Part shown: positions 56,805 to 63,268 of the stretch, piece after piece
Position numbering within the stretch: the first letter of the stretch is position 1
How the letters are laid out: every line of letters begins with the position of its first letter
Assembly (NCBI RefSeq): GCF_014643635.1
Contig: NZ_BMJV01000007.1
Location: forward strand, 71,736 to 135,735
Reading direction: 5' to 3'
DNA length: 64,000 nucleotides
DNA from: Salipiger pallidus
Lineage (GTDB): Bacteria; Pseudomonadota; Alphaproteobacteria; Rhodobacterales; Rhodobacteraceae
Translations under genes and position numbers: made by a program
Notes under the pieces: generated by a model
Told to the model about the DNA's origin: nothing
Database searches by the model: none
The model's input: the letters and a program-made list of their open reading frames with translations, nothing else

Positions 56805-57584
56805 TCAGACTTGGCGGTTGAGCATCATCTTCTTGATCTCTGCGATGGACTTTGCCGGGTTGAGACCCTTGGGGCAGGTCTTGGTGCAGTTCATGATCGT
56901 GTGGCAACGGTACAGCTTGAACGGATCCTCGAGCGCATCGAGACGCTCGCCAGTGGCCTCATCGCGGCTGTCAATGATCCAGCGGTAGGCGTGCAGCAGC
57001 GCGGCCGGGCCGAGGTAGCGGTCGGAGTTCCACCAGTAGCTTGGGCACGCGGTCGAGCAGGACGCACACATCACGCATTCATAGAGACCATCGAGCTTCT
57101 TGCGGTCCTCGATGGACTGCCTCCACTCCTTCTCGGGGCGGTTTGTCTTGGTCTCCAGCCACGGCATGATCGAGGCGTGCTGCGCGTAGAAATGCGTCAG
57201 GTCGGGGATCAGGTCCTTGACCACGGGCATGTGCGGCAGCGGGTAGATGCGCACGTCACCCTTCACCTCGTCGAGGCCGTAGATGCAGGCCAGCGTGTTG
57301 ATCCCGTCGATGTTCATGGCGCAGGATCCGCAGATCCCCTCGCGACAGGAGCGACGGAAGGTCAGGGTCGGGTCGATCTCGTTCTTGATCTTGATAAGCG
57401 CGTCGAGAACCATCGGGCCGCACTTGTCCATGTCGAGGTAGTAGGTGTCGACGCTGGGGTTCTGGCCGTCTTCGGCGTTCCAGCGATAGATCTTGAACGC
57501 CCGGACATTGGTCGCGCCCTCGGGCTTCGGCCAGGTCTTGCCGGTACGGATCTTGGAGTTCTTGGGAAGCGTGAACTGAACCAT
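56805..57584 (-). CDS. sdhB: Succinate dehydrogenase iron-sulfur subunit
   Basis: 259 residues. The plant-type [2Fe-2S] motif [15 protein letters not shown] is near residues 80-95; the C-terminal [4Fe-4S]/[3Fe-4S] motifs are [13 protein letters not shown] and [20 protein letters not shown]. It moves electrons from SdhA flavin to quinone at the membrane. Last core gene of the sdh operon, separated from sdhA by three extra genes. Confidence 0.97.
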
Positions 57585-58838: not shown

Positions 58839-59192
58839 CTAGAACATCAGCCAGTACACGGGGCCACCGCGCAGGCATTGCCGGACACCGGGCTTGTAGA
58901 GGATGTCCATGACGATGTTGTCGTTGAGCGCCGGCTGGCCGGTCGCCTGGTTGAAGGATAGCGCCTCGACCTGCCCTTTCGAGGCATAGTCGAGGATGCA
59001 GGCCACCGCCCGGTCGGGCGATATGCCGGGGGCCTTGCGTGCCATGATCGGTGTCACCGCGATCTCGGCATTGCGGAAGGCCAGCGCGTTGCGATCCGGT
59101 GGCGGCAGGATCGCATCCCTTGCAGGCGCGACGAGGTCGCAGGCCGACATGGCCAGCATCCCCATCGCTGCAATGACGATCCCGCCCCGCAT
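58839..59192 (-). CDS. Putative lipoprotein B in the sdh operon
   Basis: 117 residues with a lipoprotein signal (IVIAAMGMLAMSAC, lipobox MSAC). The body contains APGISPDRAVACILDYASKG, then VMDILYKPGVRQCLRGGPVY. It is a paralogue of lipoprotein A (58507-58830), with both cysteines kept. Its start overlaps the sdhA stop by one base (TGATG), so it is translated with sdhA. Function unknown; no domain recognised. Confidence 0.78.
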   Translation of the reverse strand: MRGGIVIAAMGMLAMSACDLVAPARDAILPPPDRNALAFRNAEIAVTPIMARKAPGISPDRAVACILDYASKGQVEALSFNQATGQPALNDNIVMDILYKPGVRQCLRGGPVYWLMF

Positions 59193-60997
59193 CAGAAGGT
59201 CCGGGCCTTGGGCGCGATCTTGGCGAGGCTGATGCCGCCCTCGGCCTCGGTGGTCAGGGTGTCGAGCACCACCGGGCGGTGGGTGAGCGTCACCTTGGTA
59301 TCGTCCACGTGGGCGATGGTGTGCACCCGCCAGTCGTCATCGTCCCGCGTCGGGTAATCCTCGTGCGCGTGGGCGCCGCGGCTTTCCTTGCGTGCCTCGG
59401 CACCGACGATGGTCGCCAGCGCGTTCGGCATCAGGTTGGTCAGCTCAAGCGTTTCCATGAGATCCGAGTTCCAGATCAGCGTGCGGTCGGTGACCTTGAT
59501 GTCGGCCATCTTGCCGGCAACGGCGGTCATCTTCTCGACGCCTTCCTTCAGGGTCTTGTCGGTGCGGAACACCGCCGCGTCTTCCTGCATGGTCTTTTGC
59601 ATCTCGAGCCGCAACTCGGCGGTGGGAAGGCCGCCGCTGGCGTGGCGAAGCGTGTCGAACCGGTCGAAGGCCTTGTCCACGGACGCCTGGTTGGCGAGGG
59701 GGTTCTTCGTCGTCGGGTCCACCAGTTGGCCGGCACGGATGGCCGAGGCGCGGCCGAAGACCACGAGGTCGATCAGCGAGTTGGACCCAAGGCGGTTCGC
59801 ACCGTGCACCGACGCGCAGCCCGCTTCGCCCACGGCCATCAGGCCCGGCACGGTGGCGTTGGGGTTGTCGGCGGTGGGGTTGAGCACCTCGCCCCAGTAG
59901 TTCGTGGGGATGCCGCCCATGTTATAGTGCACCGTCGGCAGAACCGGGATCGGTTCCTTGGTGACATCGACACCGGCAAAGATCTTGGCGGATTCCGAGA
60001 TGCCCGGCAGGCGCTCGGCCAGCGCTTCGGCGGGCAGGTGCTGCAGGTTCAGGTGGATGTGGTCGCCATGTTCGCCCACACCGCGCCCTTCGCGAATCTC
60101 CATGGTCATCGAGCGCGAGACGTAGTCGCGCGGCGCGAGATCCTTGTACTGTGGCGCATAGCGCTCCATGAAGCGCTCGCCCTCGGAGTTGGTGAGGTAG
60201 CCGCCTTCGCCCCGTGCGCCCTCGGTGATGAGGCAGCCCGAACCGTAGATGCCGGTGGGGTGGAATTGCACGAATTCCATGTCCTGCAGCGCAAGACCCG
60301 CACGGGCCACCATGCCGCCGCCGTCACCGGTGCAGGTGTGCGCCGAGGTGGCCGAGAAATAGGCACGGCCGTAGCCGCCGGTCGCCAGCACCACGGTCTT
60401 GGCGTTGAAGATATGGAAGGTGCCATCGTCGAGCTTCCAGCACACCACGCCCTGGCACACGCCATCGTCGGACATGATGAGGTCGATGGCGAAATACTCG
60501 ATGTAGAATTCCGCGTTGTTCTTCAGCGACTGGCCATAAAGCGTGTGCAGGATGGCGTGACCGGTCCGGTCCGCGGCGGCGCAAGTACGCTGCACGGCGG
60601 GACCTTCGCCGAATTCGGTGGTGTGGCCGCCAAAGGGACGCTGGTAGATCTTGCCCTCTTCGGTGCGGCTGAACGGTACGCCGTAATGTTCCAGCTCGTA
60701 GACCGCGGCGGGGGCATTGCGCGCGAGGTACTCCATCGCGTCGGTATCCCCCAGCCAGTCCGAGCCCTTGACGGTGTCGTACATGTGCCATTGCCAGTTG
60801 TCGGGGCCCATGTTGGACAGCGACGCGGCGATGCCGCCCTGTGCGGCGACGGTGTGGGAACGGGTCGGGAAGACCTTGGTCACACAGGCGGTGCGCAGGC
60901 CCTGCTCGGCCATGCCGAGCGTGGCGCGCAGTCCGGCGCCGCCGGCCCCCACGACCACGACGTCATAATTATGCGTCTCGTATTCGTATGCTGCCAT
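59192..60997 (-). CDS. sdhA: Succinate dehydrogenase flavoprotein subunit
   Basis: 601 residues. FAD-binding [20 protein letters not shown], the covalent-flavin histidine motif [27 protein letters not shown] and the active-site stretch [16 protein letters not shown] are all present. It oxidises succinate to fumarate. The gene follows sdhD and overlaps lipoprotein B by one base. Confidence 0.98.
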
Positions 60998-61015: not shown

Positions 61016-61387
61016 TCAGAGCGCGATCTTGACGAGCGCGAAAAGCCCGCAGGCGATCATGACGTAGCTGAAGCCGACGAAGGCCATGATCAGCAGCTTG
61101 CGGGTGGTGCCTTGGGTGTAATCCTCGAGCATGGTGCGCGCGCCCTTGTGGAAGTGGATCATGCCCACGACGAGGACTAGCGCGGTGAGGATCGCGGGGA
61201 ACGGGCGCGCCATGGTCTCCAGCGCGGCATCGTAGCCCGAGCCAAGCGCCTTGCCGAAGATGATGACCCAGGTCGGCAGCATGAAGGCCAGCGCGACGGA
61301 GCTGACGATCATGAACCAGTGGTGCTCCGCCCCGTGGTGGGCCGAACCCTTGCCGACGGCGCGCTGACGATCGGTGATGTAACGCAT
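61016..61387 (-). CDS. sdhD: Succinate dehydrogenase membrane anchor subunit
   Basis: 123 residues, three membrane helices. It starts MRYITDRQRAVGKGSAHHGA, with HHWFMIVSSVALAFMLPTWV, and the haem/quinone region near the second helix. With SdhC it anchors SdhAB and binds haem b. It is 9 bases after sdhC and 18 before sdhA. Confidence 0.95.
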   Translation of the reverse strand: MRYITDRQRAVGKGSAHHGAEHHWFMIVSSVALAFMLPTWVIIFGKALGSGYDAALETMARPFPAILTALVLVVGMIHFHKGARTMLEDYTQGTTRKLLIMAFVGFSYVMIACGLFALVKIAL

Positions 61388-61396
61388 GGGGATCCC

Positions 61397-61792
61397 TCAG
61401 AGCCAGATGATGATGACGGCGAGAACGGTCAGGACGCCCGACCCGTAGATGCAGACCCAGCCGAGCTTTTCGGCGGTCTCGAGGTCGAGTCCCTTGCCCG
61501 CGTCCCAGATCAGGTGACGCAGACCGGCAAGGTAGTGGTAGCACAGCCCCCAGAGCGACACGAACATCACGAGGTTGCCGACCCAGGAGGTGATCCACCA
61601 CTCGGCGGTCTCGAAGGCCTCTGGGCCTGCGGCAAGCGCCAACAGCCACCACACGATCAACAGGGTCGCCACCATGAGGGCGTTGCCGGTGATGCGTGTG
61701 AGGATGGAGCTCATGGAGGTGAGCTGCGGGCGGTAATACTGTCCGATCATGAAGGGGGAGAGCGGGCGCTCGATCCGTTTAGCTTCGGCCAT
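61397..61792 (-). CDS. sdhC: Succinate dehydrogenase cytochrome b556 subunit
   Basis: 131 residues, three membrane helices. The SdhC signature is RPLSPFMIGQYYRPQLTSMS, and the haem-ligand histidine lies in YHYLAGLRHLIWDAGKGLDL. First gene of sdhCDAB. The upstream region carries the tandem GTGATCAC sites and a possible 30-residue ORF. Confidence 0.96.
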   Translation of the reverse strand: MAEAKRIERPLSPFMIGQYYRPQLTSMSSILTRITGNALMVATLLIVWWLLALAAGPEAFETAEWWITSWVGNLVMFVSLWGLCYHYLAGLRHLIWDAGKGLDLETAEKLGWVCIYGSGVLTVLAVIIIWL

Positions 61793-61908
61793 GGCTAGTC
61801 CTTTCGGTTCCCTTGTGGGGGCGTTCTACCGAGTTTGTAGCCCTCCTGTCACCATTGTGCACATGCAGCGCAGTGGTTTTTTCGATCAATTCGGAAAAAA
61901 CTCCGTGA

Positions 61909-61940
61909 TGCGTGATCACAGGATAAATTGCGTGATCACA
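61909..61940. promoter_or_regulatory. Tandem GTGATCAC operators upstream of sdhC
   Basis: TGCGTGATCACA occurs at 61909-61920 and again at 61929-61940, a direct repeat exactly 20 bases apart (two helix turns). Each carries the palindrome GTGATCAC. They lie 117-148 bases upstream of sdhC. This strongly suggests cooperative binding of a dimeric regulator, identity unknown. Confidence 0.6.
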
Positions 61941-62045
61941 TTTTTGACGCTAACAGGGCAGTTCGCTAAGATACGCCGCTTCCCGGAACGCGGCGCAGTG
62001 ATTCTGTCAGGAATTTCCAAGGATCAGCCCAGCGGTAGGCTTCGC

Positions 62046-62138
62046 CTACTCGGTGAGGCCAAGGCGCCAAAGGGCCAGTGCGCCGTCGGAAAACACCAGC
62101 ACGTCATTGGTACCATAAAGCAGTGCAGTTGCAGACAT
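62046..62138 (-). CDS. Possible 30-residue small protein upstream of sdhC
   Basis: ATG 62138 to TAG 62046 gives 30 residues: MSATALLYGTNDVLVFSDGA, then LALWRLGLTE. GGAGG lies 6 bases before the ATG, the best-placed ribosome-binding site in this gap. A perfect hairpin GTAGGC-TTC-GCCTAC (62035-62049) covers the stop codon. No homologue is known to me. It could be a real small protein or a translated leader between mch and sdhC. Confidence 0.45.
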   Translation of the reverse strand: MSATALLYGTNDVLVFSDGALALWRLGLTE

Positions 62139-62236
62139 GGCGACCTCCATCGCGTGAAATGTCTTCCGTCCCCATAGCAATGCTATGCCCTCTGAAATGA
62201 TTCGACGAAGCACTCATTCACGCATGACGCGAACCC

Positions 62237-63268
62237 TCACTGCGGCATAAGAGCCCAGTAATCGAGGTCGAGCAGCACCTCGGGCCGGTACTTGCCGTTG
62301 TCATCCTTCAACTCGAACGGTGCCCCGCCCTTCGTGGCCACCAGCCGCAGCCGGATTGCGCCGACGCCGGGCGCGGGGGTATCGGCCTTGTCCAGCACCT
62401 CCGTCCAGGCCTTCACCGTGTCGCCGGCAAAGCACGGGTTGGCATGCGCCCCGCCGTTCAGGCCCACGATCAACTGCGCATTGGCCAGACCGTTGAACGA
62501 CAGCGCCCGAGCCATGGAGATGACATGCCCGCCGTAGATCAGCCGCTTCCCGTCCTCGCGGAAGGTGGCGTCGAAATGCACCTTGGCGGTGTTCTGCCAC
62601 AGGCGCGTGGCCATCATGTGCTCGGCTTCCTCGATGGTGACGCCGTCGACGTGGTCGATGGTCTCGCCCACCTCGTAATCGCCCCAGCGATGCCGCTCGC
62701 CCGCGAGGGTGAAATCGTAGGCGCTGAAATCAAGGCCCTCGGGGATCACCAGATCTTCCGGGGGCAGCACCGCCTTGAGGTCTGGCACCACGGTCTCGGG
62801 CGCCGGGGCTGACGCGTCGCGTTTGCGCACCATGACCCAGCGCACGTACTCCATCACCGTCTCGCCGCGCTGGTTGGTGCCGGTGGTGCGCACCCAGACA
62901 ACCCCCGTCCGGCCATTGGAGTTCTGCTTGAGCCCGATCACCTCGGACGAGGACCGCAGCGTGTCCCCTGCGTGCACCGGCAGCAGCCAGCGCCCCTCGG
63001 CATAGCCGAGGTTTGCGACGGCGTTCAGCGACACGTCGGGTACCGACTTGCCAAAGACCACGTGGAACGCGGCGAGGTCATCCAGCGGAGAGCCCGCCAG
63101 CCCGCAGGCCCGCGCGAATTCGTCCGATGAATGAAGCGCATGCCGCGCAGGGTAAAGCGCGTGGTACAGCGCCCGCTCCCCGCCCGACACGGTGCGCGGC
63201 ACGGCATGGTCGATGACCTGCCCAACCGCGTAATCCTCGAAGAAGCGTCCCGCGTTGGTCTTGGCCAT
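62237..63268 (-). CDS. mch: Mesaconyl-CoA hydratase (beta-methylmalyl-CoA dehydratase)
   Basis: 343 residues with two MaoC-like hotdog halves. N-terminal half: NAGRFFEDYAVGQVIDHAVP, with PLDDLAAFHVVFGKSVPDVS. C-terminal half: RHRWGDYEVGETIDHVDGVT and YGGHVISMARALSFNGLANA. It hydrates mesaconyl-CoA to beta-methylmalyl-CoA in the EMC pathway, the same pathway as ccr and ecm in this window. ATG 63268 overlaps the DUF1737 stop (TGATG); a GTG one codon earlier is less likely. Length and domain plan match Mch. Confidence 0.92.
   Translation of the reverse strand: MAKTNAGRFFEDYAVGQVIDHAVPRTVSGGERALYHALYPARHALHSSDEFARACGLAGSPLDDLAAFHVVFGKSVPDVSLNAVANLGYAEGRWLLPVHAGDTLRSSSEVIGLKQNSNGRTGVVWVRTTGTNQRGETVMEYVRWVMVRKRDASAPAPETVVPDLKAVLPPEDLVIPEGLDFSAYDFTLAGERHRWGDYEVGETIDHVDGVTIEEAEHMMATRLWQNTAKVHFDATFREDGKRLIYGGHVISMARALSFNGLANAQLIVGLNGGAHANPCFAGDTVKAWTEVLDKADTPAPGVGAIRLRLVATKGGAPFELKDDNGKYRPEVLLDLDYWALMPQ

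Follow-up and report, generated by a model that had tools for sequence, protein, structure and literature searches.

Paired sites upstream of the sdh operon

The window, that is, the whole 64-kb stretch of DNA that was analyzed, carries a succinate dehydrogenase operon on its minus strand. The first gene of this target operon is sdhC, encoding the cytochrome b556 subunit (61397..61792; TIGR02970), followed by sdhD (membrane anchor; 61016..61387; TIGR02968), sdhA (flavoprotein subunit; 59192..60997; TIGR01816), and sdhB (iron-sulfur subunit; 56805..57584; NF004616 and TIGR00384), all of which matched the respective models above cut-off. Upstream of sdhC, two direct repeats of the 12-base word TGCGTGATCACA were located at 61909-61920 and 61929-61940 of the plus strand, with a gap of 116 bp between the repeats and the sdhC start. 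Each repeat contained the palindrome GTGATCAC. The proximal palindrome (61912..61919) was the one nearer to sdhC, with 119 bp between this core and the sdhC start, and the distal palindrome (61932..61939) lay 20 bp farther from the gene. An earlier note, made from the window alone, had described identical 12-base repeats with a 20-base period and a palindrome inside each, and this description was exact. The same note had placed both sites on one face of the helix on account of a two-turn spacing, and the family bore this out: among 75 pairs listed for 37 genomes, the period was 20 in 6 and 21 in 64 (70 of 75 together), with another value in 5.

The core GTGATCAC occurred exactly twice in the window, starting at 61912 and 61932. 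The whole genome contained four exact copies of the 12-mer TGCGTGATCACA, two of them outside the sdhC pair, and relatives kept the 8-mer GTGATCAC with short flanks rather than the whole 12-mer. Random density had been named as a reason to discard the motif, and loose matches to the 12-mer were indeed at chance density in the window, where six with up to two mismatches were found versus 6.4 expected. Given these loose matches at chance density and the 12-mer copies elsewhere, the extra four bases are not what matters, and the pair is the signal.

Frequency of the pair in the genome and the family

For pairs, the density argument turned the other way. The genome (4.44 Mb, 23 contigs) contained 85 GTGATCAC sites, from which about 0.05 pairs with 2-32 bp between sites were expected, by arithmetic from the site density under uniform placement. 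Two were found, one before sdhC (period 20) and one before sucC (period 21; C7:139756-139784, 110 bp before the gene). Across a family set of 296 genomes, this one included, which represented 295 genera, such pairs were present in 273. A control with the reversed pattern gave pairs in 1 of 296 genomes, but it was too lenient in that the reversed word contains CTAG. This tetranucleotide is rare in many bacteria, and the density estimate was therefore preferred. Among genomes of the class, pairs with 12-13 bp between sites were present in 5 of 5 family members but were rare outside the family (2 of 284). A chance repeat could draw on how common the single site is, and at the 19 loci inspected among the 85 sites, GTGATCAC was mostly inside long reading frames, with no further convincing target. 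However, the excess of pairs, their position before two TCA-cycle operons, and their presence throughout most of the family make chance a practically negligible explanation.

The search for the motif before sdh and other TCA-cycle genes of relatives, which the earlier note had proposed as a check, showed a pair upstream of sdhC and another upstream of sucC in all 20 relatives fetched around listed pairs, these relatives having been chosen for holding pairs. In this genome, a 366-residue reading frame lay on the opposite strand between mdh and sucC (L003:6867-7967), and the distance between mdh and sucC differed among relatives.

Flanks of the pair and predicted promoters

Bases flanking the pair were counted for 37 sdhC and 48 sucC promoters, all of them distinct and most of them from genomes chosen for having the pair. 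The outer flanks were T-rich before the distal site and A-rich after the proximal site. At sucC, T occupied positions -3, -2, and -1 of the distal site in 37, 36, and 48 of 48 promoters, and A occupied the three bases after the proximal site in 47, 42, and 47. The corresponding numbers at sdhC were 28, 21, and 31 of 37 for T and 30, 25, and 22 of 37 for A. The inner flanks at sucC also mirrored each other, with A (42 of 48) and C (30) after the distal site and G (24) and T (36) before the proximal site, whereas those at sdhC hardly did so. Based on the outer T and A runs and the mirrored inner flanks, the best description of the pair is a single symmetric operator, most clearly so before sucC. 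The sdh pair of the window itself fitted these symmetric flanks poorly.

In 27 of 37 sdhC promoters, the pair was followed by a word of the form GTGAC[AT] that started 58-62 bases beyond the proximal site, mostly at 59 or 60. In the window, GTGACA began at position 60, the most frequent position among relatives (14 of 37). Comparison with relatives thus gave a predicted sdhC promoter at 61823..61852 of the minus strand, consisting of GTGACA (61852-61847), an 18-bp spacer, and TAGAAC. A sigma-70 consensus scan of 61750-62250 returned no promoter on the minus strand and one match on the plus strand, so that the sdhC promoter is a reading of conserved columns. In sucC promoters, the best-conserved TTT lay 48-50 bases after the proximal site, and C[GT]TT started at 45-48 in 25 of 48. 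The distance from the pair to the likely -35 box was about 59 bp at sdhC and about 47 bp at sucC, an offset of about one helical turn.

Two other features were observed in this region. The plus-strand sigma-70-like match (TTGACG, 17, TAAGAT; 61944-61972) begins beside the distal site and faces away from sdh. A reading frame of 30 residues (about 62046-62138, minus strand) follows a GGAGG between the MaoC-like gene and sdh; it had no convincing match among 20 relatives.

A candidate regulator of the pair

The earlier note had held that the regulator could not be read from the window, which was correct; once the whole genome and published work were added, AkgR could be inferred. We take RSP_0981 of Rhodobacter sphaeroides to be AkgR. 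In passages of PMC4344238, the GntR protein RSP_0981 was given as the predicted regulator of sucCD, sdh, and 2-oxoglutarate dehydrogenase in that species, and a passage of PMC6365646 named GTGATCAC among the binding sites of R. sphaeroides AkgR.

The present genome had 40 GntR-domain matches at E 0.001 or better, of which 35 were over the cut-off. This abundance leaves room for another regulator with the same preference for GTGATCAC, such as a GntR paralog, to use the pair, and the passage of PMC6365646 also linked GTGATCAC to a GntR protein of Pseudomonas that shares 32% identity with AkgR. Thirty GntR loci of 3 kb each were checked for the site. GTGATCAC was present in 4 of the 30, but only C2:356343-356990 had it within 200 bp of the GntR match, with the site 21 bases ahead of the start codon. 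The protein encoded there had GntR (PF00392) and FCD (PF07729) domains, both above cut-off, and its gene was on a contig other than that of sdh. From its profile, motif, and gene neighborhood, we infer that C2:356343-356990 would be the true AkgR ortholog.

The neighborhood was compatible with this assignment in Gemmobacter lanyuensis, where akgR lay about 5 kb from sdhB. The candidate was about 7-12 kb from sucD in four further stretches (G143, G063, G189, and G278), which had been chosen because the candidate was listed on the same contig as a pair. When two GntR candidates were searched for in 20 kb around sdh of 20 relatives, no regulator gene was found beside sdh at E 1e-5.

A GntR paralog (C7:184223-184912; L049) was located on the same contig as sdh and was 38-40% identical to the AkgR-like proteins of four relatives. 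It was found in 140 of 296 genomes, comprising 138 of the 273 with pairs and 2 of the 23 without. This paralog was rejected as the main regulator because it was absent from 135 pair-holding genomes, and its leaning in the same direction as the pairs is probably due to shared ancestry.

Joint presence and absence of pair and regulator

The C2:356343-356990 protein had a match at E 1e-30 or better in 280 of the 296 genomes. With this preset line, 272 genomes had both pair and regulator, 15 had neither, 8 had the regulator only, and 1 had the pair only. An ortholog line was also set after the data had been seen, in a score gap between E 5.7e-75 and 4.3e-60, and the numbers became 270 with both, 20 with neither, 3 with the pair only, and 3 with the regulator only (Fisher p 5e-25, which overstates the case since the genomes are related). 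Pair and candidate gene thus agreed in 290 of 296 genomes, whereas the one paralog tested agreed far less. Together with the result of the 30 loci, this agreement makes it improbable that a different GntR protein uses the pair.

The exceptions and negatives were examined at sucC. Three genomes had a perfect pair without an ortholog-level match (G230, G023, and G110). Their assemblies consisted of 210-320 contigs, and fragmentation may hide the regulator in them, although G110 was scored 100% complete. Of the three genomes with the regulator and no pair (G040, G144, and G263), G040 and G263 had a one-mismatch pair at the usual place. No match to sucC was obtained in G144, G111, and G157. Among the 20 genomes with neither pair nor regulator, sucC could be read in 18, and in 16 of these no site with up to one mismatch was present in the 260 bp upstream. 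The other two were G105, with one such site, and G021, with one that formed part of a three-mismatch pair. When genomes were labeled on a SucC tree of 71 rows, the label 'no pair' took 10 changes (8-10 in bootstraps), of which well-supported branches forced only 2. Repeated loss of the pair is likely. The pair was also recovered from the opposite direction: in promoters reached via the akgR gene instead of via listed pairs, it was present in 8 of 8 distinct ones (7 sucC and 1 sdhC).

The joint disappearance of the pair and a DNA-binding protein also bears on the nature of the repeats. They might be hairpins that act as a terminator or an RNA element instead of a protein site, and a terminator-like match on the minus strand (61921-61903) did take in one of the palindromes, with two such matches in the region versus 0.6 in shuffled sequences. 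An RNA element would not account for this joint loss, however, or for a 20/21-bp period and flanks that were kept while the intervening bases varied, and we regard this explanation as very improbable.

A single site at the akgR gene

The regulator gene itself carried one site instead of two. Among the 30 closest orthologs, 29 had one perfect GTGATCAC starting 16-21 bases before the start codon. In a larger collection, from which 80 loci out of at least 567 relatives (at least 594 stretches) were kept, the site was present at 61 loci and absent from 19, and at 59 of the 61 it was 16-20 bases before the ATG; R. sphaeroides was not among the 80, and the two samples may overlap. The word TTGAC was located exactly 13 bp before the akgR site in 25 of 29 and 45 of 61 cases. 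With the usual 17-bp spacing, the -10 box of akgR would run into the end of the site, and a transcript starting there would be almost leaderless.

Proposed regulation by AkgR

The two repeats at 61909..61940 were annotated as a predicted two-dimer AkgR operator. We consider it very probable that the pair is the AkgR operator, at which two dimers would activate sdh and suc, and that a lone dimer would repress akgR. Each of the two GTGATCAC palindromes would be bound by one AkgR dimer, and their spacing of about two helical turns would place the dimers on one face of the helix, where they probably touch. Acting from some 90-120 bp ahead of the predicted start, the dimers would raise transcription of sdh, and at the second pair AkgR would likewise raise that of sucC and the genes behind it. 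At the single site over the akgR promoter, a lone dimer would shut the gene down. We infer from sequence the two dimers, their contact, the sign of regulation at each promoter, and the promoter boxes. The name AkgR, and only the name, suggests 2-oxoglutarate as the effector.

The sign of regulation at sdh and suc deserves separate consideration. AkgR could bind the pair and repress both operons, by looping or by blocking an upstream activator, with release by a metabolite. Numerous FCD regulators act as repressors, and at akgR the single site overlaps the predicted promoter in a manner that fits repression there. A distance of about 90-120 bp is also long for sites that would touch RNA polymerase directly, which counts against activation. 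On the other side, about 47-59 bp separate the pairs from the likely -35 boxes downstream, without overlap, and AkgR was called a transcriptional activator in one phrase of a later paper, PMC6365646, on which the sign of regulation rests. On balance, repression of sdh and suc by AkgR is unlikely, and activation is the preferred reading.

A rule of copy number may extend this preferred reading to the family, whereby a symmetric pair at near-fixed distances from the -35 boxes of sdhC and sucC stands for activation, the lone copy at akgR stands for self-repression, and the circuit has been lost whole in several lineages. We give this rule an even chance of being right. The operator of this rule, in its clearest form, before sucC, would read TTT-GTGATCAC-AC...GT-GTGATCAC-AAA with the palindromes 20 or 21 bp apart. 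For akgR, the rule would have the copy 13 bp behind TTGAC, overlapping the -10 box of a probably leaderless transcript.

Relation to known regulons

The regulon itself is known from R. sphaeroides, and the present genome adds another member, with a modest refinement. As in the passages on the R. sphaeroides AkgR regulon, the core here is GTGATCAC, the predicted targets are sdh and sucCD, and the regulator belongs to the GntR family; unlike in those passages, the 20/21-bp layout, the flanks, and the site at the regulator's own promoter were computed here. The paired layout was absent from the passages considered of PMC4344238, PMC6365646, PMC11323563, PMC5507952, PMC4419725, PMC7471390, and PMC5343134, a set that excludes the paper defining AkgR. 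The added detail (operator geometry, own-gene site, and joint absence) may or may not be unpublished. NanR of Escherichia coli resembles the arrangement proposed here in that several GntR-type dimers occupy one repeated operator, according to the part of PMC8012715 consulted. It differs in that its operator is (GGTATA)3, with three repeats, and in that it represses sialic acid genes.

These results place both sdh and suc in a single small regulon of this Rhodobacteraceae genome, with an operator layout that can be tested, and the natural one-mismatch and lost pairs provide ready-made test cases. Across the family, pair and regulator co-occur and are jointly missing, so that the pair can serve to predict AkgR control from sequence alone.

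The other central-carbon regulator of the group, CceR, belongs to the LacI family; it has a different motif and is not a GTGATCAC binder. Passages of PMC4344238 and PMC11323563 gave sdh of R. sphaeroides as a predicted or reported target of CceR too, and the former described the CceR motif as a GTT N6-8 AAC inverted repeat. A possible CceR-like site, TGTTAGCGTCAAAA, abuts the distal AkgR site at 61942..61955 of the minus strand. It is a weak match, with three mismatches to a 14-mer consensus, and was the only word in the window within three mismatches of that consensus. By the same measure, CceR-like words were present in 7 of 37 sdhC and 5 of 48 sucC promoters, with this genome among those counted, versus about 1% in crude shuffles, and this excess suggested that AkgR and CceR may share the regions upstream of sdhC and sucC.
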